Of a DNA stretch of 64,000 bases, positions 7,043 through 46,982 are shown piece after piece (the stretch's first letter is position 1; the number at the start of each line of letters is the position of its first letter). The notes below the pieces were generated by a model that ran no database searches, was not told the origin of the DNA, and worked only from the letters and a program-made list of their open reading frames with translations. Both the position numbers and the translations under genes were made by a program. Source of the stretch: Cephalotus follicularis (taxonomy: Eukaryota > Streptophyta > Magnoliopsida > Oxalidales > Cephalotaceae); NCBI GenBank assembly GCA_001972305.1, contig BDDD01002110.1, positions 524,312 to 588,311 of the forward strand. The letters are read 5' to 3'.

Positions 7043-7309
7043 TTGCTTGGTTTGGTAGTCGATCCCTTCGTAGATGATTAGGCATAAATGTCACGTGTTT
7101 AAACCATGATGAGAACACTCTAAGAGGATGTCTTTGAAACGTTCCATACATCTAGAGAATGATTCATTGGGTCTTTGGTGAAACTGAAAAATATCGTTCC
7201 TAAGCTTATTGGTTTTATTAAGAGGATAGAATTTCTTAAGGAACGAGACAGTGAACTGATCCCAAGTGGATATGGAATTAGTTGGGAGACTGTAGAGGCA
7301 CTTCTTAGC
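7043..7309 (-). pseudogene. Athila-like gag, N-side fragment
   Basis: Reads AKKCLYSLPTNSISTWDQF, LKKFYPLNKTNKLRNDI and FQRPNESFSRCMERF-type capsid sequence, ending in GLNT then a TGA where EL6 has Trp (GLNTW). Homology starts abruptly at AKK, at the join with EL1 5'UTR near 7309-7310; EL6 shows that about 50 or more residues of gag should precede this point. Confidence 0.8.
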
Positions 7310-7464
7310 TCCAAACATGAAACAACACAAAGAACAAAAACTGAAACAGAAAACATATCATAAAAGCCTAACGGAGCAGCCTAACCCAGTGTCTACCCAA
7401 GATCACAGGTCAAACCTAGTTAGGTCTGCTAAGGAAACAAAGCCTATCCTCTGATACCACAATC
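7310..7464 (-). other. EL1 5'UTR remnant and primer binding site
   Basis: On the minus strand the primer site TGGTATCAGAGG lies at 7459-7448, five bases after the LTR end TGTTACA. It matches the initiator tRNA-Met type site of plant LTR elements. The following UTR (TAGGTTTGACCTGTG and a T-rich tract) matches EL7 34593-34735 and breaks off near 7310 at the Athila join. Confidence 0.85.
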
Positions 7465-7476: not shown

Positions 7477-8663
7477 TGTCACACCCCGCCTTTCCAATTC
7501 TGTTAGGCACAGCATATAAAGTGATATCAGAAAAAAAAATATAATATTCCAGCATTCCATTCAACAATTCATAAATAAGCGGAAGAATTCAAAAGCCGGA
7601 ATATAAAATACAAGTCATCCGCACGCAGCCCATACTACATGCAGGTATAATCCAACAAATTATCCTTTCATAAGGAAGTACGACAGTAACACGAGGTATG
7701 AACCGTTCGTTACAAATACAGTACAACATCATAAAATAACAACCTTAAATCAAAAATAGAAGCTCCCCAATCTCCAGCAGCAATCTCTGAACGTCCTTGC
7801 TTAATCTGAAATTGTAGGGGTTAGCCGTTGTCCTCACTTGGCTAAGTAGGAAGATAATGCATGTTAAGCAATATATGAATGCAACATGTATGACATTTTA
7901 TTTTAAAATAACATTTAAGTATTCCAATATATAAGCAATCATTCCAAGTGGCCATAGACAATACAAATGCAAGAATACCGCACAAGGGTACAATCAATTC
8001 ATACTGTGGTTGGGTGTCACATGTCGCTAACTCCTAGCACCAACTATGCACCACCTAGATATCACCCTACACTCCGAAGATGATAGATAAGGTAACATTT
8101 ACTACCGGCATTGGCGGGCAATTTACCAATCAAGCTCTGCATTGCAGGCAGTTTTGGTGTGTACTCTAGCCAACTCCTGGCACATAGGACCACCTCCGTT
8201 AGCCAGTGACATCTGCCATTACTCGACTAATCGGCAATAACATAGACAATCGATTCAATCAATTCAGTTCAATAATAATATCGCATATATGTATAATGTG
8301 CAATATAAAAGTTGTGTTCTTTAGAAACATTTAACAATTCATTGATCGTACATCTCATAGGAGGAAAACGATATCAATACAATAATGGTTCCCAGTAGGA
8401 GAACAAAACAGTAGGTACCTCTCATAGGAGGAAAAATCAGTAGTTCTTTTCACAATAAGCTTTCATTTGAAAATGATAGTTGATATCATGAATTGTGCAT
8501 ATAGCACCTAGTTTGTTCAATCTTTGGAAATATGGAACAATTAGGGTTTATAACACCCACTAGTATATGCTAATTAACAGTAGCATATACGGCACAATAG
8601 CAAAGACAGCAGCAATTCAATTGAGCCCAAACAGCACCTATATCAGAACTTTAACCCAGGACA

Positions 8664-8772
8664 GTCGGCTATTCTCAAGAATAGTCAGCTGTTTTGATTA
8701 GGTAGTCGACTGTTTTCTCTTTACAGTCGACTGGATAGGCTGAGTAGTCGACTGTCATGAAGAACAGTTGAC
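8664..8772. repeat. GTCGAC array in EL2, 20-21 bp period
   Basis: Hexamers start at 8664 (GTCGGC), 8684 (GTCAGC), 8705, 8726 and 8747 (all GTCGAC) and 8767 (GTTGAC): steps 20, 21, 21, 21, 20. Sequence between sites varies. Confidence 0.9.
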
Positions 8773-9821
8773 TGCCTTGCCCAGAAAATGTAGGCAGTTT
8801 GCAGGGTATAATCTTTAATATCCAAATGCTAACTCAATTAATACATGCAATCAAACAGAAATTAAACATACATGATATGCATAATATATCTTCCAAAAAC
8901 ATGTCATTACCCCTACCTTAAACGTTATCCCAAGATCAATTGGGATTGATCTCTCGCTTTGAGTTTCCAAGCCTTTTCCACCAACCAATCCTTCAATTCC
9001 AGCAGAATTAATCTATATCGTGCATGCATGAAGGTTAAGTCATCTAAACCAGTAGGTTTATCTAATTGTCCAGTTACAAATATTACTCCACAGTTACTTA
9101 TCACAAGTTCATTAAGCCTCAAACTATCCTTTTACAACCTCTCCTTCACATTATTAAACAACTTCTCATTCCAACTTAATTCCCAGGTTTAGCCATTTGT
9201 TCTTATGTCACCGTGGATATATTATACTATCGCTAATACGTTTAATCCATTAACAACCTAATATCCAACTAGTGGCTCATAAGTTTCAACCTCTATTGAA
9301 CCATTTACCAATTATAACACAATTTAAACTTGTTAACTTTTAATCAAGTTGGCAGAAGGTGTATCTAACCTCCTCCTAGCTACATTATCACATTAGCAGT
9401 GAGTTCGGATTGAGAACTTACTAAGAAAATCCAAGCTTCAATTTCCTCTTGAGCTCTAATCCTTCAACATGCAAGCTCCATCAATTCTCCAGCAATTCTC
9501 CTCTTCTCTCAGTGTTTTCTAACACTCTTACTCTAATCTAGCAGCTGATATAAAGGCTTAGGAGCCTTAGAATTTTCCAGACTCCATTACTCAGCTCTCT
9601 CTCTCTTTTCCTTCTCTCTCTCACATGCCTCTCCTCCTCTTTTCCCTTCTATTTTTGCAGGTTACAGGTCTGCAAATCTTGCAGAAGGAATAGAGGACAT
9701 GCAAGGCACTCCCCTTGCATGTTATGGCAGCTGGTGACACGCATCTCACATGCATGCCACGATTAGAACACTTCTCATCACTTTCTCTGCGCCTACCAGA
9801 CGCCTGTTCTGTACCATTCCA

Positions 9822-9896
9822 GTCGACTGTCATTAACAGGCAGTTGACTGTCCACTCACGCATCAAACAGTCGACTATTCCCCTGTGACAGTCGAT
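9822..9896. repeat. Second GTCGAC array in EL2
   Basis: Sites at 9822 (GTCGAC), 9843 (GTTGAC), 9870 (GTCGAC) and 9891 (GTCGAT): steps 21, 27, 21. The EL3 3' LTR has the same 21-28-21 layout. Confidence 0.85.
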
Positions 9897-10039
9897 TATC
9901 GATGGCTGTTTTTGGATATTTTAGGTTCATTTGCTCAATTAAATTAACAACCACAATCCGTATAATAGTTGGACATTAAATTCAAGCAAGTGCACATTTT
10001 ATTCATCAAAAGTACAATGTACAGATTGAATTTGCGGTC

Positions 10040-10044
10040 ATTAC
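10040..10044 (+). other. EL3 target-site duplication, left copy (ATTAC)
   Basis: ATTAC directly precedes the LTR start TGTAATAACC. The partner copy is 20190-20194, directly after the LTR end. Confidence 0.85.
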
Positions 10045-10218
10045 TGTAATAACCGCAACTTCAATTAATGTATATTGATCCAATTTAAATTAAATATACA
10101 TTTTAATTGAGTTATTTGTCCAATTATATTAATTTCTATGATTGGTAAATGTTTGGGATGAATGGATGTGCAATTGGTGAAGTATCAAAATTTAAGAAGC
10201 CCTAAACCAGCCCAAAAA

Positions 10219-10273
10219 GCTGACTATCACAGGGCAACAGTCGACTGTTTGATACGTGTTGGAGGCAGTCGAC
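10219..10273. repeat. GTCGAC array in EL3 5' LTR, first cluster (3 sites)
   Basis: Sites at 10219 (GCTGAC), 10240 and 10268 (both GTCGAC), steps 21 and 28. The 3' LTR has one more site 21 bp further on. Confidence 0.85.
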
Positions 10274-11304
10274 TGGATTTGTCCAGGACAGACTCTTGGC
10301 ATGTGCAAGGACAAGAATGACAGGTGGGTAGGTGTGGTACATGCATTTCACCACCTGCCAGAACATGCAAAAGGGAATGCTTGCATGTTCTCTGCATACC
10401 CACAACCTACAAATTGAAAAATAATGAGAGAAAGGTGAAGAGAGGGATGCATGTGATGGAAAGAAAAGAGAGAAAAGTGAGTGCATGTGACTTGGAGAAG
10501 GAATTTGACGAATTCAAAAGACTTTTGACATTATGTCAGCTTATTGAATGGTGAAATGAGTGTTAGAGAACACTGAGTGAAGCAAGAAGTTGCTAAGGAT
10601 TATTGAAAGCTTGCATTGGAGGATGATTTAGAGAGCTCAAAGGAGGACTTGGAAGCTTAGACTCTTGGTAAGTTTCTAAACTCGAACTCACTGCCATGTG
10701 TTGATAAAATAGCTAGGAGGATATGGAATATCTTCTGTTAATATTAGGATTAACAACCTCTTGAATTGAAATGGAAAGTAGTAATTGGATCAAGTGGAAT
10801 TGGTGACTATAACCTCTAGGATGGATTTTAGTTGTTGTTAATGTCATGAATATGCTTACTGGTTTCCTAAAAATAAATGCATCTTCTGTCAAACATGTTA
10901 AGATCAATGAACCCGAAATTTAATGATATTTGGCAATGAGTTCAAAGAAGAAAGTGGTAGAATGGTAAGAGTAATGTTAAGACTCAATGAGCTAGTGATT
11001 AAGCTACTGTTAGAATTATTGAAATCTACTTGTACTGATGCATGTGTCCATAAACATGCATACATAGATTGAACTTGCAGGATTGAAAGATTGTTGATGA
11101 AGAAGGCTTGAAAATCAAAGAGAAAGATCAAACTCAATTGATCTTGGGATAGCGATTTGAGGTAGGGGTAATGATATGTTATGGAAGATATAGTATGCAT
11201 ATTGTGTATGTCTATTTTCTGCATGATTACATGTGTTGAAATTCATTGGAAATTGAACTTGAAGTGCATGACTTGCTACTGCCTACATTTTCTGGGTAGA
11301 GGCA

Positions 11305-11413
11305 ATCAACTTCTCCTCATGGCAGTCGACTACTCAACCTATCCAGTCGACTGCCATGACAAAGCAGTCGACTACTAAACCAAAACAGTCGACTATTCTT
11401 GAGGGCAGCCGAC
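11305..11413. repeat. GTCGAC array in EL3 5' LTR, second cluster
   Basis: Perfect GTCGAC at 11325, 11346, 11367 and 11388, then GCCGAC at 11408: steps 21, 21, 21, 20. A weak preceding site (ATCAAC, 11305) keeps the phase. Confidence 0.95.
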
Positions 11414-12743
11414 TATTCTGGAAATTTTACAGGTATAAGTCTTGTTAAGGCCTCAATTTTGAATGTAATGAACCTGGCCTCAATTTGGATGACTAGAACA
11501 GTTAATCCTGGCCTCATATACAATTACATTCATGATTAAAACAATGTACGCACTTCTTGTAAGCGTGCATATGAATTGACTATGTAATGCTATTCTTTGA
11601 GAATCTTTGCATTACCGCTGAATTGTGATATTGTTTCTGTATATGCTGCTGATGATTAGTATATACCAATGACTGTTATAAACCTACTGTTTCATATTCC
11701 AATGATTGAATCAACTATGTGCTATATGCACAATACATGATAATATCTATCATTTTCAAATGAACACTTATTGTTTAAAAGGAACTACTGATTTTCCTCC
11801 TATATGAGAGGTACCTACTATTTTGTTTCCCAAACTGGAAACCATTATTGAATTGATATCGTTTTCCTCCGAAGAGATGTACGATAAATGTCTTGTTAGA
11901 TGTGTCTAAAGAAAACAACCTTTATATTGCATATTATTGATATATGTAATATTATTATTGAAATGCTTGAGTTGATTGTCTATGTTATTGCCATGGTTGA
12001 GTGATGGAGGATGTCACTGATTACGGATGTGATTCTGGGTGCCAGGAGTTGGCCAGAGTATCACCCAAACTATTCTGCAACGTAGAGATTGATTGTTAAA
12101 CTACCCGCCAACGCCGGTAGCAAGTGTTACCTAATCTATCATCTTCGGAGCGTAGGGTGATAGATAGGTGGTGCACAGTTGGTGCTAGGAGTTAGCGACA
12201 TGTGACACCCAAGTGATGGATGAATTGATTGTACCCTTGTGCGGTATTCTTGCATATGTATTGTTTATGGCCAATTGGAATGATTGCTCATATATTGTCT
12301 CATTAAAATGTTAATTTGATATAAACTATCATACATGTTGCATTCATATATTCCTTAGCATGCATTATCTTCCTACTTAGCCAAGTGAGGACAACGTCTA
12401 ACCCCTACAATTACAGATTAAGCGAAGATGTGTGGAGATTTCTGCTGAAGCTTGGAGAACTTCTATTGTCAATTTAAGGTTGTTATTTACTTTATGATGT
12501 ATTGTATTGTATCGAACGGATCACATCCCGTGTTGTGTTGTATTTCCTTTTATGTAAGGATAATTGTTGGTTTTACCCGCACGTAGTATGGGATGCGTGC
12601 GAATGGCGTGTATTTATATTTCGGCTTATCGAATGCTTCCGCAAATTTATTTATGAATTTTACTGGAATATTATTTATGCTTATTCTGATATCACCACAT
12701 ATGCTTGTCTTATCGTGAACCAAAATAACGGGGTGTGACAGCA

Positions 12744-12755
12744 TGGTATCAGAGC
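12744..12755 (+). other. EL3 primer binding site
   Basis: TGGTATCAGAGC three bases after the LTR end matches the 3' end complement of initiator tRNA-Met, the usual minus-strand primer in plant gypsy and copia elements. Confidence 0.9.
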
Positions 12756-12845
12756 ATATTCCATATATGCTAAGCTGGGATAAGTTTCTCAGAAATTAAG
12801 TGAATTGTTTCCTAATGATTTTTGTCATTCCATATAGGAAACAGA

Positions 12846-13960
12846 ATGGATCTCCGAAGAGGACGAAAGGGAAGGCGCAGAGCAGATGAAGGTGTCAACG
12901 CACCGCCGGTACCTGGAAATGACCCTGCAATGAATGAAGGAGTTAATGTTCCCCCAGTGTATGACGAGAGAAGTCACTTTGACCGCATGGCTGATCTCTT
13001 TCAGCAACAGAGGCAGGCGAATGCGGCAACATAGCATAGATTCGGCAAATGTACAAGGCTAACCGTACACATCCGCAAGTACCTGACGCTTGCCATGCCG
13101 ATGGATTTGGCCGAGATCTGGAGCGGTTCATGAGACAGAATCCTCCAACTTTCAATGGTGAACTAAATGCTACTGCGGCCGAACGATGGATTAAGGACAT
13201 GGAAAAGATATTTGTTGCTCTAGAGTGTACCGATGATCAGAAACTCAGTTTTGCTGTGTACCGCCTATGGGGCGAGGCGACTTACTGGTGGGAAAGGACT
13301 GAAACAAAATCCGAAGCCCGTGGACTTGACAGGACATGGGACAGATTCCAGTCTTAGTTTCTTGATACTTATGTACCGCAGATTGAGCGTGACCGATGGG
13401 AGACTGAACTGATGGAGTTACGTCAATGAGATATGACTGTAGCTCAATACTAGACTAGATTCATGGAGCTGGCGAGACACACACCTTATCTTGTGGAGGA
13501 TGAGTCATGGATCATCCGGAGGTTCTTGAAAGGCCTTCAACCAGACATCAGGTCTAAATTTTTATTGTTAAAGCTGACCACTTTTGTTGATGTTGCTGAG
13601 AAAGCAATGATTCTGGAAGCTGACGCGAACGAGAGAAGAGCAGAACGGACTCGTACAAATCAACCGAGGGCCGTACAGTCACGAGGGCAGGGAAGTAATA
13701 ATCCTGCTAAGTCAACCAAATTTGACAACAGTGGTCAAGGAGGTTCTCGACGCACACGATCAAGGACACCTAACCGAAACAGTCAACAGAATGCATGTGG
13801 ATGTACCTTCTGTGGTCGCCTGAATCATGATGAGTCTGAATGCTGGAAGAAGATGGGAAAGTGCCTGAAGTGTGGTTCACAAGATCACATGCTGGGTAAT
13901 TGCCCAATGATTAGGGAACAAGTACGCAGCCAACAAGGGAGTGCTGGTGCTAGTGGTAGT
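12846..13960 (+). pseudogene. EL3 gag, broken
   Basis: Starts at MDLRRGRKGRRRADEG (12846); this frame stops at 13034 and a 1-bp loss nearby shifts the rest to the main polyprotein frame (from 13049). The capsid-like part reads RNPPTFNGE-type sequence, AERWIKDMEKIF and EATYWWERTE. In-frame stops lie at 13355 (TAG), 13427 (TGA) and 13451 (TAG). Two CCHC zinc knuckles follow, [14 protein letters not shown] (13802-13843) and [14 protein letters not shown] (13862-13903); the other gypsy elements here show fewer clear knuckles. Gag would form the virus-like particle. Confidence 0.9.
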
Positions 13961-14520
13961 GTTGCGGTGGCTCAACCGCGGAGAGACACCGGAAAGGGGA
14001 TCGTGAAAGGTAGGGCTTATACCTTATCTAAAGATGATATGCCAGAATCTACTACTGTTGTGAGAGGTACTATTTACATATCTGAAATATTAGCTCATGT
14101 ATTGATTGATCCTGGTGCGACGCATTCAATCATTGCATCTGAATTTGCTCACAATTTGCATGGCATTACTACTAGACTATCATATGTTTTGGAAGTGAGT
14201 ACTCCTACGGGTACTTGTCTTTTATCTGATACTGTTATGAAAGACTGTGAAATCGTGATAGCTGGGTTTGAACTATCCGCTGACTTGATAGTGTTACCTA
14301 TCCGATATTTTGATGTAATCTTGGGGATGGATTGGTTGTATGCTCATCATGCTTGTGTTGATTGCTACAACAAGATGATGACCTTTTATCTACAAGATGG
14401 GACTGAGTGCAAGTTTATAGGGGAGAAGAATGTTACTACTCTGATCATTTCATATACACGAGCACAGAGATATCACAAGCAAGGATGTGAAGGCTATTTG
14501 GCGTATCTGATTGACCATAC
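13961..14520 (+). pseudogene. EL3 aspartic protease with altered active site (DPG)
   Basis: The retropepsin domain reads [16 protein letters not shown] with D at 14108, P at 14111 and G at 14114; the family motif is D-S/T-G, so the serine or threonine has become proline, which should spoil activity. The rest is normal: [34 protein letters not shown]. It is in frame with downstream RT. Confidence 0.9.
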
Positions 14521-15421
14521 GAAAGGTACGCCTAGTATTGAACAAGGGCCTGTTGTATGTGAATTTCCTGATGTGTTTCCAGATGAACTCACTTCGTTGC
14601 CACCGGAGAGAGATATCGAGTTCAGTATTGAATTATTGCCTGGAACTGCTCCTATATCCAGAGCACCATACAGAATGGCTCTTGCTGAATTAAAGGAGTT
14701 GAAAGTTCAACTGCAAGATTATCTTGACAAAGGATTTATCAGACCAAGTGTATCACCGTGGGGCACACCGGTTTTGTTTGTGAAGAAGAATGATGGATCA
14801 ATACGGCTATGCATTGATTACAGGCTACTGAATCAGGTGACGGTGAAAAACAAATATCCTCTACCACATATTGAGGAGTTGTTCGACCAATTGCAAGGCT
14901 CAACTGTATACTCCAAACTTGACCTGAGAACAGGTTACCATCAGTTGAGGATTAGAGAAGGTGATGTGGAGAAAACTGCATTTCGATCCAGATATGGGCA
15001 TTAAGAATTTTTGATACTGCCATTTGGTTTAACTAATGCTCCTGCAACCTTTATGTGTTTAATGAACAAAGTGTTCCAACCTTACCTGGACCAGTTTGTC
15101 GTTATATTCTTAGATGACATCCTGATCTACTCAAAGAACATTGAGGAACACATGCAGCATTTGCGGATTGTACTACAGACTCTACGGAAGGAACAGTTGT
15201 ACGCCAAATTTAGCAAGTGTGAATTTTGGCTGGATCATGTGACTTTCTTAGGTCACATAGTGTCGAGTGAAGGATTGTCAGTGGATCCTTCAAAGATTGA
15301 AAGTATTGTTGATTGGCCCCAACCGAAGAACGTGACGGATGTTCATAGTTTCTTGGGATTGGCTGGCTACTACCGAAGGTTCATCAAGGGATTTTTGAAA
15401 CTTGCTACACCACTGACATAG
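14521..15421 (+). pseudogene. EL3 reverse transcriptase
   Basis: Gypsy RT in one frame: [21 protein letters not shown]-type lead-in, [72 protein letters not shown], and the catalytic FLDD (Asp pair at 15113-15118). A TAA at 15002 follows YGH, and a TAG at 15419 follows ATPLT. No indel is needed to read through from protease to RNase H. Confidence 0.93.
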
Positions 15422-16963
15422 TTGACTCAGAAGAAGTCCAGTTTTGTGTGGGATGATTCCTGTGAAGCGAGTTTCCAAGAGTTAAAGAGTCAGTTGATTT
15501 CGGCTCCAGTGTTGGCATTACCGAAAGGTAATGAGGGTTTTACTGTCTACACAGATGCTTCTGGGAAAGGATTGGGATGCGTTCTGAGGCACCATGGTAG
15601 GGTGATTGCATACGCATCAAGGAAGTTAAAACCGTACGAGAAAAATTATCCCGTACACGATCTTGAGTTGGCAGCCATAGTGTTTGCTTTGCAGAAATGG
15701 AGGCACTATCTCTATGGGGCACAGTTTGAGATCTTTACTGATCACAAAAGCTTGAAATATTTGTTTTCCCAGAAGGAGCTCAACATGAGACAAAGGCGAT
15801 GGGTGGAATTCTTCAATGACTATAACTGCAATATTCAATACCACCCGGGGAAGGCGAATGTAGTGGCTGATGCGCTGAGTCACAAGGCAATGATTGCTGG
15901 AGCTATGGTTTCACAGTGGAAGCTATTGGAGGAATTTCAGAGATGGAATCCGTTCACGGTTTCCCAAGGGGTTATTGTAGCAAGTATGAGAGTACAATCG
16001 GAACTTCTGGAATGTATTCTGACTGCTCAGTACGGTGATTATGAATTGTGGGGTATTCGTGAGAACCTAGACACTGATTCTGAGTTCTCCATTCATACTG
16101 ATGGCATATTAAGGTTCCGAGGGAGGATATGTGTTCCGGATGACAAGGCTATCAAGAATGAGCTACTGCAACAAGCTCACAAATCAAAGTACAGTGTTCA
16201 CCCAGGGAGTTCCAAAATGTGGGACAACCTGAAGAAGAATTACTGGTGGAACGGTATGAAGAGAGAAATTGTTGAATATGTAGCAAGATGTTTGACCTGT
16301 CAGAGAGTGAAGGTTGAACATCAGAAACCTGCGAGATTGCTACAATCGCTACCAGTGGTTGAATGGAAATGGGAGCATGTGACCATGGACTTCGTGTCGG
16401 GATTACCAAGGTCACGAAACCAGCATGAGGCAGTGTGGGTTGTTGTGGACAGACTTACTAAGTCCGCACACTTTCTTCCGATAAACATGACGTATTCTAT
16501 CGAGAAGCTTGCTCGATTGTATATTCGGGAGATAGTGAGATTGCATGGGGTGCCGGTCAGTATTGTCTGCGACCGAGATGCTAGATTTACTTCAAGGTTC
16601 TGGAAGAAGTTACAAATAGCAATGGGAACAACCTTGAACTTTAGCACTGCATTCCACCCACAGACCGATGGACAGTCCGAGCGTACTATCCAGACTCTAG
16701 AGGATATGTTACGGGCTTGTATGATTGATTTTGCTGGGAGTTGGGAGGATCATCTTGCATTGATTGAGTTCTCCTACAACAACAGTTTTCATACCAGCAT
16801 TGGAATGGCTCTGTATGAAGATTTGTACGGAAGAAAATGCAGATCACCTATTTGCTGGGACGAGGTTGGTGAGAGACAAGTACTTGGACCAGATTTGGTA
16901 CAAGAGACCACCGATAAAGTAGAGATGATCAAGAAGAGATTGCTAGCTGCACAAAGTCGGTAG
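15422..16963 (+). pseudogene. EL3 RNase H and integrase
   Basis: A 513-codon open stretch. RNase H: TVYTDASGKGLGCVL (first Asp near 15554), [32 protein letters not shown]. Integrase: HHCC zinc domain ending CLTCQRVKVEH (Cys at 16289 and 16298), then the DDE core with Asp near 16388 (MDFVSGLPRS), Asp near 16571 (VCDRDARFTSRFW) and Glu at 16679 (GQSERTIQTLEDML). All three catalytic acids are present. It ends at a TAG (16961) after AAQSR, in the same frame as what follows. Confidence 0.93.
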
Positions 16964-17427
16964 AAGAATCACGCCGATAGCAAGAGAAGGAAGCTGGAAT
17001 TCGATAAGGGAGATCATGTTTTCTTGAAGATTTTGCCTTCGAAGGGGATATACCGTTTTGGCCTTAAAGGGAAGTTGGCTCCAAGATATATTGGACCTTA
17101 CGAGATACTGGAGAGAGTGGGGGAGATAGCATACCACATCGCACTACCGCCTAGCTTGTCAGACATGTATAACGTATTTCATGTTTCCATGTTACGGAAA
17201 TACGTACCCGACCCATCTCAATTTCTGAGCTACGACCCTGGATTCATTAGTCCGAGATTAACATATGAAGAAAGACCGACGAGGATTGTTGATCGAATGG
17301 AAAAGGTTCTGAGGAACAAGACCATCCCTATGGCAAAGTGCTATGGCGTTTTCACGGAGCGGAGGAAGCTACGTGGGAGCGTAAGGATGAAATGAGGGAG
17401 ACATTTCCCCACCTATTCGGAATGTGA
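16964..17427 (+). pseudogene. EL3 integrase C-terminus and chromodomain-like tail
   Basis: Reads GDHVFLKILPSKGIYRFG, KLAPRYIGPYEILERVG and YNVFHVSMLRKYVPDPS, then a chromodomain-like tail LTYEERPTRIVDRMEKVLR. A one-base loss after IPMAK (about 17338) scrambles the last 28 codons; in the shifted frame the tail continues to a stop at 17425-17427. Chromodomains of this type are thought to steer chromoviruses to heterochromatin. Confidence 0.88.
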
Positions 17428-17458
17428 TGTGAGGGCTAAATTCGAGGATGAATTTTCT

Positions 17459-17473
17459 TCAAAGAGGGGGGAA
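17459..17473 (+). other. EL3 polypurine tract
   Basis: A purine run containing AGAGGGGGGAAG directly abuts the 3' LTR. The LTR's first base here is G instead of T (GGTAATAACC), a point change relative to the 5' LTR. Confidence 0.85.
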
Positions 17474-17647
17474 GGTAATAACCGCAACTTCAATTAATGT
17501 ATATTGATCCAATTTAAATTAAATATACATTTTAATTGAGTTATTTGTCCAATTATATTAATTTCTATGATTGGTAAATGTTTGGGATGAATGGATGTGC
17601 AATTGGTGAAGTATCAAAATTTAAGAAGCCCTAAACCAGCCCAAACA

Positions 17648-17723
17648 TTCGACTGTCACAGGGCAACAGTCGACTGTTTGATACGTGTTGGAGGCAGTCG
17701 ACTGCCCACTATAGCCAGTCGAC
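17648..17723. repeat. GTCGAC array in EL3 3' LTR, first cluster (4 sites)
   Basis: Sites at 17648 (TTCGAC), 17669, 17697 and 17718 (GTCGAC): steps 21, 28, 21. The 5' LTR lacks the last unit. Confidence 0.9.
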
Positions 17724-18773
17724 TGGATTTGTCCAGGACAGACTCCTGGCATGTGCAGGGAGAAGAATGACAGGTGGGTAGGTGTGGCACATGCATTTCA
17801 CCACCTGCCAGAACATGCAAAAGGGAATGCTTGCATGTTCTCTACAGACCTACAACCTACAAATTGAAAAATAATGAGAGAAAGGTGAAGAGAGGGATAC
17901 ATGTGATGGAAAGAAAAGAGAGAAAAGTGAGTACATGTGACTTGGAGAAGGAATCTGACGAATTCAAAAGACTTTTGACATTATATCAGCTGATTGAATG
18001 GTGAAATGAGTGTTAGAAAACACTGAGTGAAGTGAGAAGTTGCTAAGGATTATTGAAGCTTTCATTGGAGGATGATTTAGAGAGCTCAAAGGAGGACTTG
18101 GAAGCTTGGACTCTTTGTAAGTTTCTAAACTCGAACTCACTGCCATGTGTTGATAAAATAGCTAGGAGGATATGGAATATCTTCTGTTAATATTAGGATT
18201 AACAACCTCTTGAATTGAAATGGAAAGTAGTAATTGGATCAAGTGGAATTGGTGACTATAACCTCTAGGATGGATTTTAGTTGTTGTTAATGTCATGAAT
18301 ATGCTTACTAGTTTCCTAAAAAAAAATGCATCTTCTGTCAAACAAGTTAAGATCAATGAACCCGAAATTTAATGATATTTGGCAAAGAGTTCAAAGAAGA
18401 AAGTGGTAGAATGGTAAGAGTAATGTTAAGACTCAATGAGCTAGTGATTAAGCTACTGTTAGAATTATTGAAATCTACTAGTACTGATGCATGTGTCCAT
18501 AAACATGCATACATAGATTGAACTTGCTGGATTGAAAGATTTTTGATGAAGAAGGCTTGAAAAACAAAGAGAAAGATCAAACTCAATTGATCTTGGGATA
18601 GCGATTTGAGGTAGGGGTAATGATATGTTATGGAAGATATAGTATACATATTATGTATGACTATTTTCTGCATGATTACATGTGTTGAAATTGATTGGAA
18701 ATTGAACTTGAAGTGCATGACATGCTACTGCCTACATTTTCTGGGAAGAGGCAATCAACTACTCCTCATGGCA

Positions 18774-18862
18774 GTCGACTACTCAACCTATCCAGTCGAC
18801 TGCCATGACAAAGCAGTCGACTACTCAACCAAAACAGTCGGCTATTCTTGAGGGCAGCCGAC
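18774..18862. repeat. GTCGAC array in EL3 3' LTR, second cluster
   Basis: Sites at 18774, 18795, 18816 (GTCGAC), 18837 (GTCGGC) and 18857 (GCCGAC): steps 21, 21, 21, 20. Confidence 0.93.
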
Positions 18863-20195
18863 TGTTCTGGAAATTTTACTGGTATAAGTCCTGTTAATGC
18901 CTCAATTTTGAATGTAATGAACTTGGCCTCAATTTGGATGACTAGAACAGTTAATCCTGGCCTCATATACAATTACATTCATGATTAAAACAATGTACGC
19001 ACTTCTTGTAAGAGTGCATATGAATTGACTATGTAATGCTATTCTTTGAGAATCTTTGCATTACCACTGAATTGTGATATTGTTTCTGTATATGCTGCTG
19101 ATGATTAGTATATACCAATGACTGTTATAAACCTACTGTTTCATATTCCAATGATTGAATCAACTATGTGCTATATGCACAATACATGATATTATCTATC
19201 ATTTTCAAATGAACACTTATTGTTTAAAAGGAACTACTGATTTTCCTCCTATATGAGAGGTACCTACTGTTTTGTTTCCCAAACTGGAAACCATTATTGA
19301 ATTGATATCGTTTTCCTCCGAAGAGATGTATGATAAATGACTTGTTATATGTTTCTAAAGAAAACAACCTTTATATTGCATATTATTGATATATGTAATA
19401 TTATTATTGAAATGCTTGAATTGATTGTCTATGTTATTGTCGTGGTTGAGTGATGGAGGATGTCACTGATTACGGATGTGATTTTGGGTGCCAGGAGTTG
19501 GCCAGAGTATCACCCAAACTGTTCTGCAACGCAGAGATTGATTGTTAAACTACCCGCCAACGCCGGTAGTAAGTGTTACCTAATCTATCATCTTTGGAGC
19601 GTAGGGTGATAGATAGGTGGTGCACAGTTGGTGCTAGGAGTTAGCGACATGTGACACCCAAGTGATGGATGAATTGATTGTACCCTTGTGCGGTATTCTT
19701 GCATATGTATTCTTTATGTCCAATTGGCATGATTGCTTATATATTGGCTCATTAAAATGTTAATTTTATATAAACTGTCATACATGTTGCATTCATATAT
19801 TCCTTAGCATGCATTATCTTCCTACTTAGCCAAGTGAGGACAACGGCTAACCCCTACAATTACAGATTAAGCGAAGACGTGTGGAGATTTCTGTTGAAGC
19901 TTGGAGAACTTCTATTGTCAATTTATGGTTGTTATTTACTTTATGATGTATTGTATTGCATCGAACGGATCACATCCCGTGTTGTGTTGTATTTCCTTTT
20001 ATGTAAGGATAATTGTTGGTTTTACCTGCACGTAGTATGGGATGCGTGCGGATGGCTTGTATTTATATTCCGGCTTATCGAATGCTTCCGCAAATTTATT
20101 TATGAATTGTGCTGGAATATTATTTATGCTTATTTTGATATCACCACATATGCTTGTCTTATCGTGAACCGAAATAACGGGGTGTGAAAATTACC

Positions 20196-22905
20196 CCCCC
20201 GGACGGCGTGTGTCGCTACAGGTCATAATACAGAACCTATCATAACATAGCATAATTTATCTGAACAAAAACATAACTTTAACTAAACATAAACGTTAAT
20301 TTATTAGCCAAAACGTGGCGGACATAGCATAACTGAAAAAGACTGTTCAAACTTAAAACTTAACATAATTCAAAAGTCAGAATACTGAAACATTAACCAA
20401 ATACCATATTGTTCATGACCACTAAAAATCAAAGACACTTAAGGATCACACTCCTAGGGATCCATGACATAAGGTGGTCAACTCTCATTCACACATTCCC
20501 CCGTTGCTCCTGATAACCTGCCGCATGGAAAACAAAAACGCTGCTGAGCAAACCTCAGTACGGATAAGGAAAGAAAAAGCAGTAAACAATAAGTTTAAAA
20601 GCAGTAAAATTTCAATAAAATCCATAACAGAAATCTTAAGCAATTAAAACAATTTAATCGTATTCGAATTTCTATAAAATACCAATTTTCATATATGAAA
20701 CATCTCAAAACATCATTTCATGATTGATAATGTCATACTGAGCCACATACATATCACATTTCATCACATAGATTGGCAAGGGTGGCGCTAATTCCACATG
20801 CCCAATAGAATTGAAGTGTACGGCACTACACAAGTCAATTATCACATATCATTTCATATCACATAACCATATACTAGAATCGATTCATATGCCTCTATCA
20901 TACATAGCGGATCCATAAATCCACCTCATGGGATTTATTCATAACATTCAGAGACTACTTAGACTAATCACACCGCTACGGAAGTGTCATATCCCCGTGC
21001 CAGGACTACGACATGCCTATGGTACGCCCCATAGGTGGGTACAATACTCAGTATTCGATCATTTCGAACACATCACTTTAAAACACATCAATATGCTTTC
21101 TCAAAACATATTTGAAAATCCTTCACAACGATATCATAACATACATTTCATAGTCAAAACATCAACTCATTTATTTTTCGTGATAAAGAGATGATCATTT
21201 CATAACATATCGTAACGTATCTTAGCATAAGAATAAAGTCAGGAACATTTAATTTCATAAAATGTCAAAAACCAACTTCATTTTCGAAATATAATCCAAT
21301 TCATAAATCGAAAGAACATAGCATAAAACAAAACTGATTTCAGTTCGATAACCAGATAGCCAAGGAACGATAGAAATCCATACCTTATGCGTTCACAAAA
21401 GCACTTACGAAAAGATTGTTAATTCAACTCCCCTTTTGAAGCACAACAATCTAAAAGACACCCAAAACCATTCATATAAGGGTCTAAGAAATATTAGAGA
21501 CATTAAACAGACTCATTACAGTGTTTAGAAAAGACCCGGATTGATTCGTAGAACAAATGGATCAAAATAGTTGAAAACAAAAATTTTATGGGCAAAACAG
21601 CCAACTGTCACAGAGTTCTAGTCGACTGTTGAAGCTTGGCAGCCGACTGTTCAACAGGGCCAGCCGACTACTCAACAGAAACAGTCGACTGCTTTCATAT
21701 GGCAGCCGACTGCTCAACAAAACTAGCTAACTGTTCAAAAAAAAACAGCCAACTGTTCTGGACAACAGAACAGCAGAAACTTGACATTTTCAACACAAAA
21801 ATTGCCCAATCATGAATAACATCATACCAGAGACATATGAACATATTCCCAAGACATTATATGATGTGTAGATCACGCAAAAACACATAATTGACATGAA
21901 GAAGCATACAGGTAGTGATTAACTTCAAGAGATATGGAAGAACCTTTAAACATATGCATATTTACAAGTCCAAATTTATGCCCATAATCATTAAAACATA
22001 TTTAAAACCATATTACAGTTTATGTGATGTGTCCAAAGACTGACCAATCGATTTAGAACAACAATTCTAACATGACATGAATTGACAGGAAACCAAATAA
22101 CTCCTAACAACCTATTTAGCATGAATACAACGTAACAAAGTGAAATAAACCATCACAGCGGGATTTACTAACCTGTAATGGTATTGGAAACACAGAAAAC
22201 AGTAGAAGAACACCACAGTTCAAGGATTACTTGGCTGTTTGCAGGAAAACGAAGACAATAAAGTAAACAATACACAAACAACCTTAAGCCAACCAAAGGA
22301 AAAGGAACCAAAGGAGATTACCTTTGTAATCTGTTGAAACAACTCCACAAGAGTAACAAACAGGCTTCACAAAGCAGAATTTGGCAGTGACAGGTAGAGG
22401 AAACGGATTGCATATCACAACACTGTAGCTCTCTTAAAACAGGGATGAAAAGAATGACTGGAGGAATTGATAAGGAAGAAGAGGAGACAAGAATCAGTTT
22501 AATAAGGAAGAATAAGATTGAAGACGTGTGGATTTGTTGAGGGAAAGAGAGAGTTTCAGGAGAGGAGAGGAGAAGAAAGGAAAGAAAAGAAGAGAGAAAA
22601 GGAAAAAAATGAAGGAAAAATAAAAATAAAAATAAAAGAAATATGTTTTATAATAAAAGAAGTGTTTTAATAATTTTTAAAGCTGCAAAATAAAATAGAG
22701 TTTTGATAAAATTAAAAGATATAAACATAGTCCCAACCCAACATTGCATACTATATCCAAAAAATCAGGCTGGTATCAAACAACCCAAATCACATAAGCC
22801 CAAAACACAGGGCAACGGACTTAAATTTAAAACAAATTAAAAATCCCGAAAACAAATATATATATAAAAGTTCGTAACACATATACGAACAAGTAGGGTA
22901 TTACA
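20196..22905 (-). mobile_element. EL1 5' LTR, main part
   Basis: Its right end TGTAATACCC (minus strand, starting 22905) and following 650 bp match the 3' LTR at 1-656. Its left end completes the 12 bp left at 7465-7476 once EL2 and EL3 are taken out. Length about 2.7 kb. Just outside, CTGCT (22906-22910) should be the target-site duplication; the partner is off-window. Confidence 0.85.
21600..21753. repeat. GTCGAC-type array in EL1 LTR, 21 bp period, 8 sites
   Basis: Sites at 21600 (GCCAAC), 21621 (GTCGAC), 21642 (GCCGAC), 21663 (GCCGAC), 21684 (GTCGAC), 21705 (GCCGAC), 21726 (GCTAAC) and 21748 (GCCAAC): six exact 21-bp steps, then 22, where an A-run has gained a base. The LTR ends differ from those of EL2/EL3. 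Confidence 0.95.
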
Positions 22906-29416: not shown

Positions 29417-30321
29417 AGCTAAATTCGACGACGAATTTTCTGTAAGGATGAGGGAATGTAATGACCGCAATTTCAATTCGATGTATAATGTATAATTCAT
29501 GAATAAAATTATACATTTATCTAAGATTTAATTGGTAAGTGTCCTTTTATTTGGCTATTGTTATTGTGGTTATGAAAGGATGAGTTAAGTGATGGAAATT
29601 ATAAGGAATCAGGGCACTTGTGTGTCAACGCCATGCATTGATGTCGACGCCAAGTAACAATGAAACGTACTTAAGGCTTCTTGCCTTAAGGCGTTGACAC
29701 CATGTGAGGACGTTAACGTCCATTGCTGGTGAACTGAAGGGGATAGGCGTTAACGCGACTAGGGGTAGATTGTTAATTCAAAGGCATGAAGTCAACGCGT
29801 CGATGCCCAGCATTGACGTTGACACCTAAGCTGTCAACAGAGTAAGTTAAACAAGGACAGAAGATGCGTGACGGATGGCACTTCTCATTCCCCATGCTCT
29901 ATACTAACGAAAAGTGAGAGGGAGGAGATTGATGGAGGTCACATCGACCTGCCATCCCTACCATGCCGTGAGGAAAGAGAGAGAGGGGTTAAGACTCCAT
30001 TAAAAACACCCTTCACATCTTCTCCAAAAGGCTACCGTTAATGGAAGTGAGGGAGAGATATTGTCCCGCCATTGTTGAACCGAGAGAAGGAGCTTGAGAA
30101 CCAAAGGTTAGAACCTGGACTTGGAGAAATTGAAAAGCTTAAAGTAGAGGACTTTCGATTCCTACCGTGGAATCAAAGGTTGGGTTTATGACATGTTTTT
30201 GAAAATATGGCATGTATATTGTGTTATGGTGATTGTGAATGCTTGCATGTTGATCATAAGTGTGAATCCATGCCTGATTGAAGTGATTTTGGAACAAATT
30301 GTCTTGCAGCATTTGATTTAC

Positions 30322-30594
30322 GTCGACGCCTAAGTGATTGACGTTAATGCCATACTGGAAATAATCGATGATTCGTACTGTTAGGATGATTTACATCGAC
30401 GCCTAAGTGGTTGACATTAACGCCTTAGTGGAAACAGTTGATGTTTTGTACTGTTAGGATGATTTACGTTGACTCCTAAAAGGATGACGTTGACGCATAA
30501 ACCTACTAGTTTCTAGGACATCAACGCCTAAAAGGATGACGTTGACGCCTCAGGTTCCTACCTTAACGCGTCGACGACAATATTGAATGTTGAC
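30322..30594. repeat. GTCGAC/GTTGAC array in EL5 LTR
   Basis: Sites include 30322 (GTCGAC), 30343 (GTTAAT), 30395 (ATCGAC), 30416 (ATTAAC), 30468 and 30489 (GTTGAC), 30520 (ATCAAC), 30541 (GTTGAC), 30562 (CTTAAC), 30570 (GTCGAC) and 30589 (GTTGAC). Many steps are 21, but the phase is broken in places (52, 31, 8, 19). Confidence 0.75.
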
Positions 30595-31354
30595 GCCTAA
30601 GGTCCTTCCTTAGTGCGTTAACGCCCATTGTTGAATATTGATGCGTGAATGACATTAAGGCCTAAGATACACGTTGACGCCTAATATGCACGTCGACTCC
30701 AATAGTGGCTGTTTTACATTCTGAGCATATGGTTGCTTGCATTTTGCTTGTTTGATTCTTAGAATCATCCAATGATTGTAATGCTTGAGTGATTGCACAT
30801 TATTGAAAGTAATATATTGTTATAGATATTATAAATCTATCTAGTGATTTCAAGGGATTTATTATTGATGCTATATGCATAATCAAAGGTTTTCTATTAC
30901 TGCTTTAAAAGAAAACTAGGTGTATTGTTTTGTTTCCTCAAAAAGGGAACTTAGTGAAGTGTTTTGTTGTTCCCTCCAAGTGAGGTACAGTTAGTGAAGT
31001 GTTTTATCCTTTCCCAAATGGGATCTTATCAAGTGTTTATAGTTTTCTCAAAAGAGATTTTATTGAAATGTTTGCCGTTTTCTCAAAAGAAAACTAGTGT
31101 TATTTTACATATTATATATGTAATTTCAGTGATTGATTGTGATTGAAGTGATGTCGATAGTTTAGTGAACGGACTGTATCGGATGTGCCAGGAGTTGGCT
31201 CTAGCTTATTCACCAAATTTATCTGCCATGCAGACAATGAGTGTTACATTGCCTGCCAAGTGCCGGGTGGTTGTCAGGTGGTACATCGATTGAGCTAGGA
31301 GGTAGCAGGAGATTAGTGATTGATTGTACCCTTGTGCGGTATTCTTGATAAGTG

Positions 31355-31378
31355 ATATATATATATATATATGTGTGT

Positions 31379-31424
<46 letters not shown>
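31355..31424 (+). repeat. (AT)n-(GT)n microsatellite
   Basis: An AT run passes into a GT run with one GTAT interruption. It lies in the EL5 LTR and is absent from the homologous place in EL3. Frames across it (poly His-Thr or Val-Cys) are artefacts. Confidence 0.95.
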
Positions 31425-31425
<1 letters not shown>

Positions 31426-31797
31426 CATTTATACATATATCTAGTGTTTAAAGATATAATTGTCATGCATGATTACATTCATATATTCATTGACGAAGAC
31501 TATTGGACAAGTGCTGCTGAAGCTCTACTTGGAGGCTTCTTATCTTAAGGTTGTTAAGTGAGTGTATTGTAATAAGTCATACTCTGTTGTTATATTTTAC
31601 ATTCTGAACATGTATTATGTAACTTGTATTGTAGTAAGCTTAAACACGTAGTATGGGCTGCGTGTGCATGCGAATACTTATGTAATCCAGTATTATAGAA
31701 GTCTTCCGCTAAAGTTTTAAAATTATTGGATTTTTATAAATGTTAGATTAATTGATAACAATGTTTAATAAATGGTAATTGAGAACGGGGTGTGACA

Positions 31798-32259: not shown

Positions 32260-34575
32260 TGTAATATCCCGTTTCGTTGCCTATGTGTTTATCGTCATAT
32301 GTTATGTTTTGTCATATGCCATATGTTATGTTCCATTGGACCGTTTAATTTCGTTTTGATAAACTCTTTCATTTTATGTTATGGGCGTTAAGGGTCGACG
32401 CCTTTGCCTTAAGCATCGATGCCTTAGTGTTGTTGTTTCTCGTTTTTCTTCCAGTATTGAAAACATCGCTTTTGTATGAAAAGGCTTAAGTGCTGACACT
32501 TTTGAGTTACCGTCGACGCTTTAGTCAATTTTCCTTATTTGTGTGGTCGGTGGCCTTGTAAGGAAAGTGGGATTTTCTTGCCATAATCTGGTTATTTGTT
32601 TCCTTTTGTGTTTGCCGCATTTTCTGCTCATAAGGAAAGCTTTAATCCTACACGTTTTTTCCGTCAAAACCCACGGATTCTCTTTTCAAACTCCATCACC
32701 TGCATTTTTCAAAAACCTGTGCAACCATCCTTTTTGCCATCGTTCTCCCTATTGTTTTTATATCACCTGAAGGTATAGTTTTTTCTATTGTTGTATATCG
32801 TTATTTTCTTGAATACAAAGGTTATAGATTGTTCAAAAACTCTACTGCTAAATCTATAAAACTTCTATAAATCCTGTAATGTATAAAATTTGTTTTAAGC
32901 ATGGAGCTATGTTTTGAAAAGTCATTGTTGCTACATTCAATCTGTAAATCAATATGTTTATGCTTTCAAATTGTTACACTGGTATTTACAAACAGAAAAG
33001 TTATGATTTAAAACCTATATACTACAGTTTTATTGATTTATGTCTCAGAAAACTGGATTCCTACAACGGTTTTAACGTCCTGCTCTTATTAAAGCGTCGA
33101 CTGTTTTTGTTTTCTGTCGATGCTTATGTTTTAACCATCAACACTTTGCTTTGAGCGTCGACACTTTTGTCGTAAAATGTCATGTTTTCTTCGACGCATT
33201 GTCCTGTGCTTGTGTTAACGTTTTGCTTTAAAGCGCCAACGCTATGTCTTAAGCGCCAACGTTTTGTCTTGAACGTTGACGCTTTTGATGCGAAGCTTGA
33301 CACTTTCTTCTAGCAGTTAGTAATTAACGTCTTTTATTTTGTAATATGGATTGGTTTGTGTATTAGGGTTCCAAAACATCTGTGGTGGAGATTAGGGTGA
33401 TTCCTTGAGTGCTTTTGATTCGATCTTGTGATTATTAGGTTTGAACAACTAAGGTAAGGATTTTCCTTTCTTGGATACTTCCTTTGGTTTTATTTGAATA
33501 AATATAAATTTATCACTTTTATGAATAAAGTTGAATATCCTTGATTTTATGAATTCAGTTTTGATGAATAAAATGCAAATTTTATTATTATCATCTCTTT
33601 TAATTATTTGTGGAATTAATTGAGTATGCTTTTCAATTGTAAAAGTATATTGACTTTTTATAATACGAATATGATATCGATTTAGGAACTGTTCGGAAAC
33701 ACCGTATATATGTGTGTATGTTTTAAATTGGTTTTGGAATAAATCAATATTTTGGAATAATGACATACAGAGTTATACCAACCTATGAGTTCCCATAGGC
33801 ATGTTCTTTGGCATGGAGGACATGGCACCATCCGTGATGGTGTGATCAATCTACAGCCTCTCTCACTGTTTTGATATCCTGTGAATAGGATTATATCCGA
33901 TTTTTGGTCACCTGAGTGTGATAATTCTGATAGAGGCGTATGGGTCGACCCTAGGAATATATGTTCTGCTCGGATATGGGAATTGATTGTGTAGTGCCAT
34001 ACATGTTATTCCGACCGGCATGTGGGCATCGCGAACCCCTTGCATATATGTATATATTTTTTTTTTTTTACACCGAAGCTCTGTATAGAATTATGAAATT
34101 ATGAAATTCAAAAATTTATGAAATTTTACAGTTGTTTTATATGAGTATTTTGTTTAACTTTATGAAAGAATATTTAATCATGTTACGCATGAGATTTCTG
34201 ATTTTAAAATTCTGACACATTTCTATCTTTTAAATTAACGTTTATTGTTTTATATTCTATATCCATACTGAGGTTTGCTCAGCCGTATTTTCTTTCTATG
34301 CGGCATGTTATCAGGAGCATCCAGGGAATGTGTTATGAGAGAAGTACCCTACGTCAGATGATCACTTAGGAGCTTGATCATGTTAGATTTTAATTGTTTT
34401 GTGGTCATGTGTAGACCGTTATTGTCAATAGTATTTTTTTTTTAATTTGGAACTTATGTTATTATTTTGTTTTCTTCAGATTTTGAGCCACCATGTTATC
34501 TGAATAAAGGTTGATTTATGTTTTGATAAGTTTTATATATCCTATAGGCACTCCCAACCGTATAGGGGTGTTATA
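32260..34575 (+). mobile_element. EL7 5' LTR (2316 bp)
   Basis: Starts TGTAATATCCCG and ends GGGGTGTTATA (last bases changed from TTACA). The length difference from the 3' LTR is largely explained by two segments absent there, near 33632-33680 and 34045-34110. Arrays at 32394-32420 and 33096-33310. Confidence 0.9.
33096..33162. repeat. GTCGAC array in EL7 5' LTR
   Basis: Sites 33096 (GTCGAC), 33116 (GTCGAT), 33137 (ATCAAC), 33157 (GTCGAC): steps 20, 21, 20; further degenerate sites run to about 33310. Confidence 0.85.
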
Positions 34576-34580
34576 GATTG

Positions 34581-34592
34581 TGGTATCAGAGA
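34581..34592 (+). other. EL7 primer binding site
   Basis: TGGTATCAGAGA lies five bases after the LTR end, as in EL1 (one base off the tRNA-Met site). Confidence 0.88.
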
Positions 34593-34754
34593 ATATGTTT
34601 TTCTTTCCTTGGAAGACCTATCTAGGTTTCACCTGTGAGTTGGGTAGAAACTTGGGTTAGGGTTACTTCTATAGTCGTTTCAGTATGTCTTTGTTTGAAG
34701 TTTTTTTTTTGTTTCTTTTCGTTATTTCATGTTTCGGTTTCTGTTTCATAGATT

Positions 34755-35990
34755 GCACGAACAAGGAATACCCCTCAGGAAACTGAACAAGTTGTGGCGC
34801 GGGAAGAAGTACGAAATGAGCCTATTATTGATGAATTGGTACGACATGAAGTTGGACAGACTGTACCACAAGTGGTGAATCAAGTGATTCGCGCTAAGCA
34901 GTAGCAAAATCCAGAACGGGGTCGTCAAGAACATGTTGCTAAGGAGAATGCACCGGTTAATGCTCAAGCTAATGGGGGAGTTGAGGACCGGCCCGACCTT
35001 CCTGTATATGCCTGGCTTGAGAGGTTCTAGAAGCAGAGGCCCCAATCCTTCAGTTTAGCACCGACACCTGTAGAGGCTGAACACTGGATTGCTCACATGG
35101 AGAAAATATTTGATGTGTTGGGGTGTAGTGATGAGCAGAAAGTGTGATTGACTATGTATAAGCTGGAAGGCGATGCTCAACGATGGTGGAAGACGTTGAG
35201 GATAGCTAAGGGTGGAGGCTTTATTGATGCTCTATCGTGGTCTGAGTTTTGTAAAGTCTTTTATCAGCAATATTTTCCCACTTCTGATAAAGAGGCTTAT
35301 GCAAGGGAGTTTATGACCACAAGACAGAAGGATGGTGAATCAGTCACCGAGTTCCTGGCACGGTTCAACAGACTGGCTGGTTTTGCTGGACCTACAATGG
35401 GGACTGCGGCAGACCAAGCTAAGAATTTTAAGTGGAAGCTATATTATCAACTCAGGGGAAAGCTGATAAATTCAAAATTTTCTGGCGTATCTAAGGTTGC
35501 AAATGCTGCAAAGAATACAAGATGGAAAGGTTGGACTTTTTGGCAGCCTGGCAAAAATGGGAGAGAAAGCGGAACAGAGGTGATGCTCAAGGTCAGAATT
35601 CCAGACAGCAGAGTAAGGGTCAAGGCGGCCAATGGAACAAGGGCCGTGGCGGTTAGCTACATAAGCAAGAACATAATCAGAACATTGATGGAGGCCAACA
35701 GCGACAGTCGGGTAATGATCAGAGGCATGTTTAGGGAGCTGCAAGTGGGGGAAACCCCAATAGCGTACAAGTTGCACTGTGTGATATTTATGGGAAGTGG
35801 CATCCTGACGGGACATGTTATAAGGCCTTTGGGGCTTGCTTTGTATGTGGTTAGATGGGTCACTTATTTAAAGATTGTCCAGATCCTCGTGCAAAGAATA
35901 GAAGAGGAAATGGTAATGATGCGGGACAGCGCAACATGGGAGGCAAAGTCTTCGCCATGACAACACACTAGGCTGCAGATGCTCTAGGTA
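34755..35990 (+). pseudogene. EL7 gag
   Basis: Frame opens with ARTRNTPQETEQVVAREE, has stops at about 34902, 35028 and 35145, then a long open run with SLTMYKLEG-like capsid sequence: DAQRWWKTLRIAKGG, WSEFCKVFYQQYFP, AYAREFMTTRQKDG, TEFLARFNRLAGFAG. Around 35520 the frame shifts; the zinc knuckle CFVCG-x-MGHLFKDC near 35830-35880 is read in another frame and holds a TAG in its centre. It supplies the 5' gag section missing in EL1. Confidence 0.88.
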
Positions 35991-35999
35991 CAGTTTCGG

Positions 36000-46977: not shown

Positions 46978-46982
46978 AAAAC

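Follow-up and report, generated by a model that had tools for sequence, protein, structure and literature searches.

The window, as we call the whole 64,000-nucleotide stretch analysed here, is plant-like DNA packed with nested LTR retrotransposons. Eight of the ten ORFs scanned gave matches to retroelement families (RVT_1, RT_RNaseH, Integrase_H2C2, aspartic protease and gag). When proteins were searched with one pol ORF, the named entries among the best 120 of 7993 matches were mostly plant retrotransposon polyproteins, and one entry among these 120 carries an archaeal name. The typed carriers, elements A, C, D/E and M, have Ty3/gypsy-type domains of RT, RNase H or integrase, while the array-bearing H, J, N and X are untyped. 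Compared with a Tekay/Del chromovirus, whose Ty3/gypsy pol ends in a chromodomain, the gypsy-type domains are clear but the Chromo match is weak, being found in 1 of the 10 ORFs with an E value of 8.6e-4, weaker than the Pfam cut-off.

The LTRs carry arrays of a dyad unit of about 14 bp, which consists of two abutting 7-bp half-sites in inverted orientation, GACGCTT or GACTGTT plus their inverses. The dyad AAGCGTC-GACGCTT is referred to as class K and AACAGTC-GACTGTT as class Q. The elements and their arrays are:

1..7459, minus strand: remainder of element D/E, with the internal region at 657-7459 and a cut 3' LTR at 1-656
1829-2581 and 713-1693, minus strand: ORFs of element D/E holding RT and RNase H, respectively
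7459-7476, minus strand: last bases of LTR D and PBS, read on the far side of the nested solo LTR B and of element A
7477..10044, minus strand: solo LTR B, nested in the end of LTR D, probable TSD GGGGG
8660-8776 and 9795-9900: arrays of LTR B, class Q
10045..20189, plus strand: element A, TSD ATTAC, LTRs 96% alike, PBS at 12744
10236-10277, 11321-11417, 17644-17727 and 18770-18866: arrays of element A, class Q
20195..22905, minus strand: LTR D, starting with TGTAATACCC at 22905, taken as the 5' LTR of D/E
21596..21757, minus strand: class Q array of LTR D, eight units, those at 21659 and 21722 placed by eye and absent from the automatic 14-bp list
29457..31797, plus strand: LTR F, a single LTR related to A and G
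29620-29827 and 30318-30701: diffuse sites of LTR F, resembling K only in their right half and for the most part placed by eye
32260..41514, plus strand: element C, LTRs 86.5% alike
32390-32521, 33092-33284, 39455-39586 and 40140-40354: arrays of element C, class K
44766..46978, plus strand: solo LTR H, TSD AAAAC, termini TGTTAGA/TCTAACA
46055-46230: array of LTR H, class K
49968..51813, minus strand: LTR M of a Ty3/gypsy element with pol at 48292-42782, interrupted by solo LTR H
51445-51671, minus strand: array of LTR M, class K
52320..52483, plus strand: class K array of LTR G (a single LTR at 51814-53668, cut at its start)
53987..54347, plus strand: sites N, class K, assigned to no element
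59631..59727, plus strand: class Q array of LTR A1 (A family; LTR to 61054)
61167..61251, plus strand: sites X, class K, assigned to no element
62882..63249, plus strand: array J, class K, several cores CTGA or CAGA in place of TCGA, assigned to no element
10236-10277, 17644-17727, 9795-9900, 32390-32521 and 39455-39586: second, proximal dyad clusters of the LTRs of A and C and of LTR B, about 130-260 bp from the LTR start

Element A adjoins solo LTR B, and both lie within the end of LTR D. We infer that LTR D, the internal region at 7459-657 and the LTR start at 656-1 form one minus-strand element, D/E; the cut 3' LTR (1-656) and the beginning of LTR D are 88% alike. On the minus strand at 4896-7090, a Gag-like ORF (457 aa, without a Pfam match) and an aspartic protease ORF fall between the PBS and gag-pol of D/E, a region of Athila-like appearance. 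Similar DNA is present on both sides of element C (31951-32253 and 41522-41816). Several tandem repeats were also seen. The 3' part of the minus-strand element M holds a tandem array of units of about 100, 200 and 400 bp (41824-42734), a 205-bp tandem duplication lies ahead of array J (62091-62484, TRF 100% matches), and a 73-bp tandem duplication in LTR F (30314-30479) contains several dyad-like units and shows how arrays may grow. LTR G has at 52966-53028 an exact three-copy 21-bp repeat, GAGTTGGCTAGAGCTTATACA, which is unlike the dyads and represents a fresh 21-bp minisatellite.

The phased palindrome arrays described in the earlier note are confirmed, and the signal is stronger than reported there. 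The exact hexamer GTCGAC occurs 52 times in the whole window against 5.69 expected, a number reached in none of 100 shuffles. An automatic scan for non-overlapping sites matching K or Q in at least 10 of 14 letters gave 137 sites in the window, 90 of them phased. The phased sites fall within 26.8 kb of LTR (76 sites) and within 3.9 kb of array-bearing DNA assigned to no element (14 sites). The other 33.2 kb contains 16 unphased matches and no phased site. Because the limits were drawn with the arrays in view, the unassigned pieces owe this contrast in part to how they were delimited; the paired LTRs are free of that. Class K gave 86 matches, 33 of them phased, against 5-22 matches and 0-2 phased in 20 scrambled-palindrome controls, and class Q gave 70 matches, 28 phased, against 12-41 and 0-1, respectively, the K and Q match sets overlapping in this comparison.

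GTCGAC is not the constant part of the sites. The pattern AAGCG-N4-CGCTT (up to 2 mismatches) occurs 54 times, against 8-18 times for ten other gap lengths, and just 14 of these 54 sites have TCGA at the centre, so the arms matter beyond GTCGAC itself. When dyads were scanned without regard to the core, requiring six of seven pairs, 68 dyads with GC of at least 5 were obtained, with 2 pairs at lag 21 (at most 1 in shuffles); this setting was judged too strict. With a softer score, lag 21 outranked every other lag above 10, whichever of the four arm lengths was used.

The period is narrow. All 11 pairs of exact GTCGAC no more than 27 bp apart are at lag 21, with none at lags 1-20 and 22-27, and two pairs stand at lag 28. 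Allowing one mismatch, there are 30 pairs at 21, 13 at 20, 6 at 19 and 1 at 22. Leaving out the duplicate LTR copies A5, A1 and C5, 112 of the 137 sites remain; among their 55 successive steps of up to 40 bp, 31 are of 21 bp and 13 of 20 bp, 44 of the 55 in all. The individual arrays agree: the eight units of LTR D, two placed by eye, are separated by six steps of 21 bp and then one of 22, the steps 21, 21, 21, 20 were verified in A3 and A1, and the five exact 21-bp steps of M were verified at 51553-51658, with the last unit placed by eye. Coding heptads were considered as the source of the period and rejected, since the arrays fall outside ORFs of at least 150 aa. No 10.5-bp rhythm is seen in the larger gaps (n=11, e.g. 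45, 46, 77 and 78 bp; Rayleigh p 0.86), hand-placed units included. Thus, the proposal that the sites face the same side of the DNA stands between neighbours but not beyond them. The lack of helical phase in the larger gaps weakens a one-face model for the whole array and confines the proposed contact to neighbouring dimers.

How closely the carriers are related bears on the claim that unlike families share the arrays. By similarity over their length the LTRs form four groups: A, B, F and G; C and D; H; and M. Cross-group BLAST (11 of the 21 possible pairs, one strand) gave just two matches, each of them within arrays: A matches D over 30 bp, and G matches M over 40 bp. In a self-comparison of the whole window (both strands, at least 100 bp), six matches link the A/B family to D, all over arrays with some flank, and no further match between LTRs of these groups was found. 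The families had also been said to have different termini, which is true of H and M but not of A, C, D and F, whose LTRs start with TGTAAT..CC and end with GGGGTGT(G/T)ACA or near it.

The two classes cut across these relationships. Within the LTR groups, A and B are Q whereas F and G are K, despite the homology of the F and G LTRs to those of A and B, and D is Q whereas C is K. In a pol tree of 15 rows, built on the RNase H-side block only, C (K) is sister to the E part of D/E (Q) with support 95/91, and A stands elsewhere, grouped with P0002 (support 100/99). Class follows neither the pol tree nor the LTR groups, which agrees with the earlier proposal that the arrays were kept or regained by several families. 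In the Q families 40 of 40 units score Q over K; in the K families 73 of 81 units score K over Q, with 3 Q over K and 5 ties, both counts including duplicate LTRs and hand-placed units. The K array of LTR G sits where the related LTRs A and B hold a Q array: A3 914-2464 aligns with G 136-1639 across both arrays, and the B-G alignment stops 19 bp before the B array and 22 bp before the G array. From these alignments and unit scores, arrays at the same position differ in class almost throughout. LTR F is the weakest K case, because its right half fits K but its left arm does not, being 0.21-0.33 alike to those of the five other K arrays.

Exchange of array cassettes between unrelated LTRs was also considered and rejected, as 7330 cross-group flank comparisons against 60 shuffles revealed no clear cassette. 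Matches exceeded every shuffle at the middle thresholds: 315 with one flank at least 5/7 (shuffle mean 236, max 278), 50 at least 6/7 (mean 25, max 44), 153 with both flanks at least 8/14 (mean 103, max 135) and 40 at least 9/14 (mean 24, max 37). The top thresholds remained within the shuffles, with 2 matches at 7/7 (max 4), 6 at 10/14 or better (max 8) and none at 11/14 or better. The middle-threshold excess may reflect a motif slightly over 14 bp or an old exchange. Relatives were also sought elsewhere, in collections that contained no other plant DNA: no pol relative was confirmed in IMG/VR, the Q pattern had 0 matches, and the K pattern had 2, both judged to be chance single sites, in contigs that we take from their proteins to be levivirus-like.

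Further information about the arrays came from substitutions. As the earlier note had claimed, the DNA between sites is mostly unlike: in 18 comparisons between arrays of different families (3 Q, 15 K), similarity is 0.23-0.43 for spacers and 0.57-0.88 for the 6-bp core, and the spacer values of 0.40-0.43 belong to the related pair A-B. Spacers of different groups are slightly more alike than shuffled spacers. Between A3 and B, differences amount to 5/54 in the core, 14/72 in the arms, 15/54 in the spacers and 608/2304 in the rest of the LTR (core vs rest, p 0.0027); adding the comparison with A1, in which A3 is used again, gives 5/84 in the core against 816/4335 in the rest (p 0.0016). Within single insertions the relation is reversed. 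The core changed at 4/48 positions between A5 and A3 against 75/2535 elsewhere, and at 15/72 between C5 and C3 against 152/1967 elsewhere; pooled, core changes are 19/120 against 227/4502 in the rest (p 1.4e-5). There were four Fisher tests in total, the counts are small, and the reference sites were picked by motif match in A3 and C3. On these counts the core is spared between families, yet decays fast after insertion. The faster core change in C is attributed to CpG decay, as CpG letters of the C LTR pair changed at 10/43 in palindromes against 26/103 elsewhere. Taking CpG letters alone, A3 and B show no clear sparing of palindromes (2/18 differ, against 13/64 elsewhere; small counts).

These data allow the possible origins of the arrays to be weighed. 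Ordinary 21-bp minisatellites could arise by replication slippage, their palindromes being incidental and merely not yet mutated. TRF reports tandem units of 20-22 bp over array parts of A5, A3, A1, D, C5, C3 and G and the 73-bp duplication in F, and inside single arrays the spacers are somewhat alike (0.14-0.57, with the 6-bp core at 0.58-0.93). We nevertheless regard this origin as improbable, since different families agree in most of core and arms but have nearly unlike spacers, the core is spared from family to family and not after insertion, the same dyad and period appear in LTRs without other similarity, and the 33 kb outside LTR-like DNA contains no phased site. Alternatively, the palindromes could act as RNA, with array transcripts that fold and are processed to small RNAs bringing silencing, or with a fold of use to the element. 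The available text of PMC5311732 and PMC10760457 describes small-RNA hotspots in those parts of maize Sirevirus LTRs that are rich in palindromes, and six of the ten array stretches, folded as RNA, have z from -3.1 to -6.3. The other four give -0.67, -0.68, -1.88 and -2.40, folding being near the shuffles in G and part of C. Moreover, no compensatory pairing of arms was found inside units within families (Q: 125/175 arm pairs observed against 123.2 expected, 25 units, P 0.34; K: 212/336 against 218.1, 48 units, P 0.96), and in G the right arm (0.83 alike) is better kept than the left (0.62). Arms without compensation indicate that the hairpin is not the selected property; as 3 of the 10 stretches also fold with z weaker than -2, we rejected hairpin-driven selection and consider a function in RNA unlikely.

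Two further explanations name the kind of protein that would bind. One, a special case of a docking array, is a CBF/DREB-type AP2/ERF factor, which would make the elements cold- or drought-inducible. In the motif table available from PMC9138379, GTCGAC is CRTDREHVCBF2, a core CRT/DRE hexamer identical to that of the arrays, and RYCGAC is CBFHV, as likewise in the part of PMC4482647 available. RYCGAC is kept on one or both strands in 20 of 28 Q units (two hand-placed), with GCCGAC/GTCGGC as the commonest variants, but in just 33 of 70 K units (12 hand-placed); many K cores lack the CRT/DRE hexamer, and cores in array J are often CTGA or CAGA. Furthermore, RYCGAC does not predict the conserved arms, and the motif as listed in these sources comes without arms or dyad arrays at 20-21 bp. 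A dimeric docking site is also at odds with this protein family: AP2/ERF proteins mostly bind as monomers. CBF/DREB may serve as a lead for the Q arrays, and as the general answer it seems to us improbable. The other explanation, to which we assign very little probability, is that an anti-silencing protein with sequence specificity targets the arrays, as VANC does in VANDAL transposons. In the available text of PMC5735166 and PMC10398659, VANC targets are short tandem-repeat motifs in non-coding DNA that co-diverge between related TEs, much as the K/Q switches do, and the Arabidopsis VANDAL arrays change in concert (PMC5735166). However, VANC is encoded by the TE, and A and C each have about 4.7 kb of internal DNA, most of it gag-pol, which leaves little room for such a gene. 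PMC5735166 further concerns DNA transposons and the motif YAGTATTAY, not described as palindromic insofar as the word "palindrom" is absent from the available text.

The dyad itself, its repetition at 20-21 bp, phasing only in LTR or LTR-like DNA and freely changing spacers are all observed directly. From them we think it probable that the arrays are cis-regulatory parts of the LTR at which a dimeric host factor docks, a prediction made from one 64-kb window. The docking array suggested in the earlier note fits best with the inverted half-sites, the spared core, the nearly unlike spacers and the independent arms, and its protein is a predicted one; half-sites that vary independently and lean to one consensus are the trace expected of a dimeric protein. 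We hypothesize that a dimeric DNA-binding factor of the host would occupy each dyad, and that neighbouring dimers, two helical turns apart, would share one face and bind cooperatively. Occupancy would raise transcription of the element, and lineages that lose the sites would cease multiplying. Activation is preferred over repression because the core was spared in the lineages that multiplied. Families would follow one of two half-site preferences, perhaps those of two paralogous factors or of one shifted factor, and turnover of tandem units could carry a whole array from one class to the other.

The arrangement has precedents. SV40 and HTLV-1 have 21-bp repeats, in which the control sites of a viral regulatory region or LTR recur at close to two turns of the helix, although these are animal viruses with other motifs and proteins. 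The earlier note had found no named element to match the arrays, but palindromic repeated motifs (RMs) are known from Sirevirus LTRs, where regulation has been suggested as their role (Bousios et al. 2010, PMC2829016). According to the text available from that paper, RMs are Sirevirus-specific among the Ty1/copia elements compared, and one of the 13, that of Vitis, is CGGTCGACCG, with the same GTCGAC centre as the dyads described here. Both systems place many short palindromes of family-specific sequence and divergent flanks in one LTR. Sirevirus elements contain at least eight copies (PMC2829016, as available), and the automatic list gives 12 units in the C3 LTR, 9 in A3 and 6 in D (8 with two by eye). 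The same text has RMs mostly in the upper LTR half; here the distal arrays of A3, B, D, C3 and F lie 37-54% of the way along the LTR, that of H 58-66% and that of M 8-20%. RM clusters form CpG islands there, and CpG o/e is 1.26-1.95 in the arrays of C3, H, M, G, J and F, 0.83 in A5 and 0.51 in D, against 0.66 for the window, so that the K arrays measured are CpG-rich. On the other hand, RM carriers are Ty1/copia while the typed carriers here are Ty3/gypsy, and the half-sites GACGCTT and GACTGTT take the place of the CGG-CCG core that marks 12 of the 13 RMs, Tnd-1 being the one without it. Spacing is fixed at 20-21 bp here, with none given for RMs in the available text. From the end of the distal array to the downstream TATA-like CTTATATATTGG there are 871 bp in A3 and 727 bp in B, farther than for Sirevirus RMs in that text. 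Array architecture and proposed role would resemble those of RMs by analogy, with two defining features, lineage and the CGG-CCG core, being different.

None of the titles listed from the openly licensed PMC literature reports phased palindrome arrays in Ty3/gypsy LTRs, and the available texts of PMC11963269, PMC6911290, PMC12016029, PMC11302176, PMC5738225 and PMC6317226 contain no such array. As far as the text of PMC10760457 goes, the palindrome of maize Copia occurs in Helitrons too, and cis-regulatory regions of other TE families are arrays of sometimes palindromic repeats, a precedent that limits the novelty of the present arrays.

In summary, the arrays occur in several families of the Ty3/gypsy type and in one or more solo-LTR families that are untyped. 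It is tempting to propose, though we hold this only tentatively and rate it somewhat below an even chance, that LTR lineages without other similarity converged in one plant genome on a common regulatory code. The code would consist of dyads spaced two helical turns apart that serve a single dimeric factor of the host; entire arrays would change over between two half-site dialects, and the elements would keep regaining this shared dependency. The dyad offers a ready bait for the host factor, and class switching between sister elements provides a natural experiment on change of regulatory partner. The contrast between sparing among families and decay after insertion is a simple test for any LTR motif. 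If Ty3/gypsy families share the design of the Sirevirus RMs, at a strict spacing of two turns and under apparent selection, such arrays may be a general route of plant retrotransposons into host transcription.
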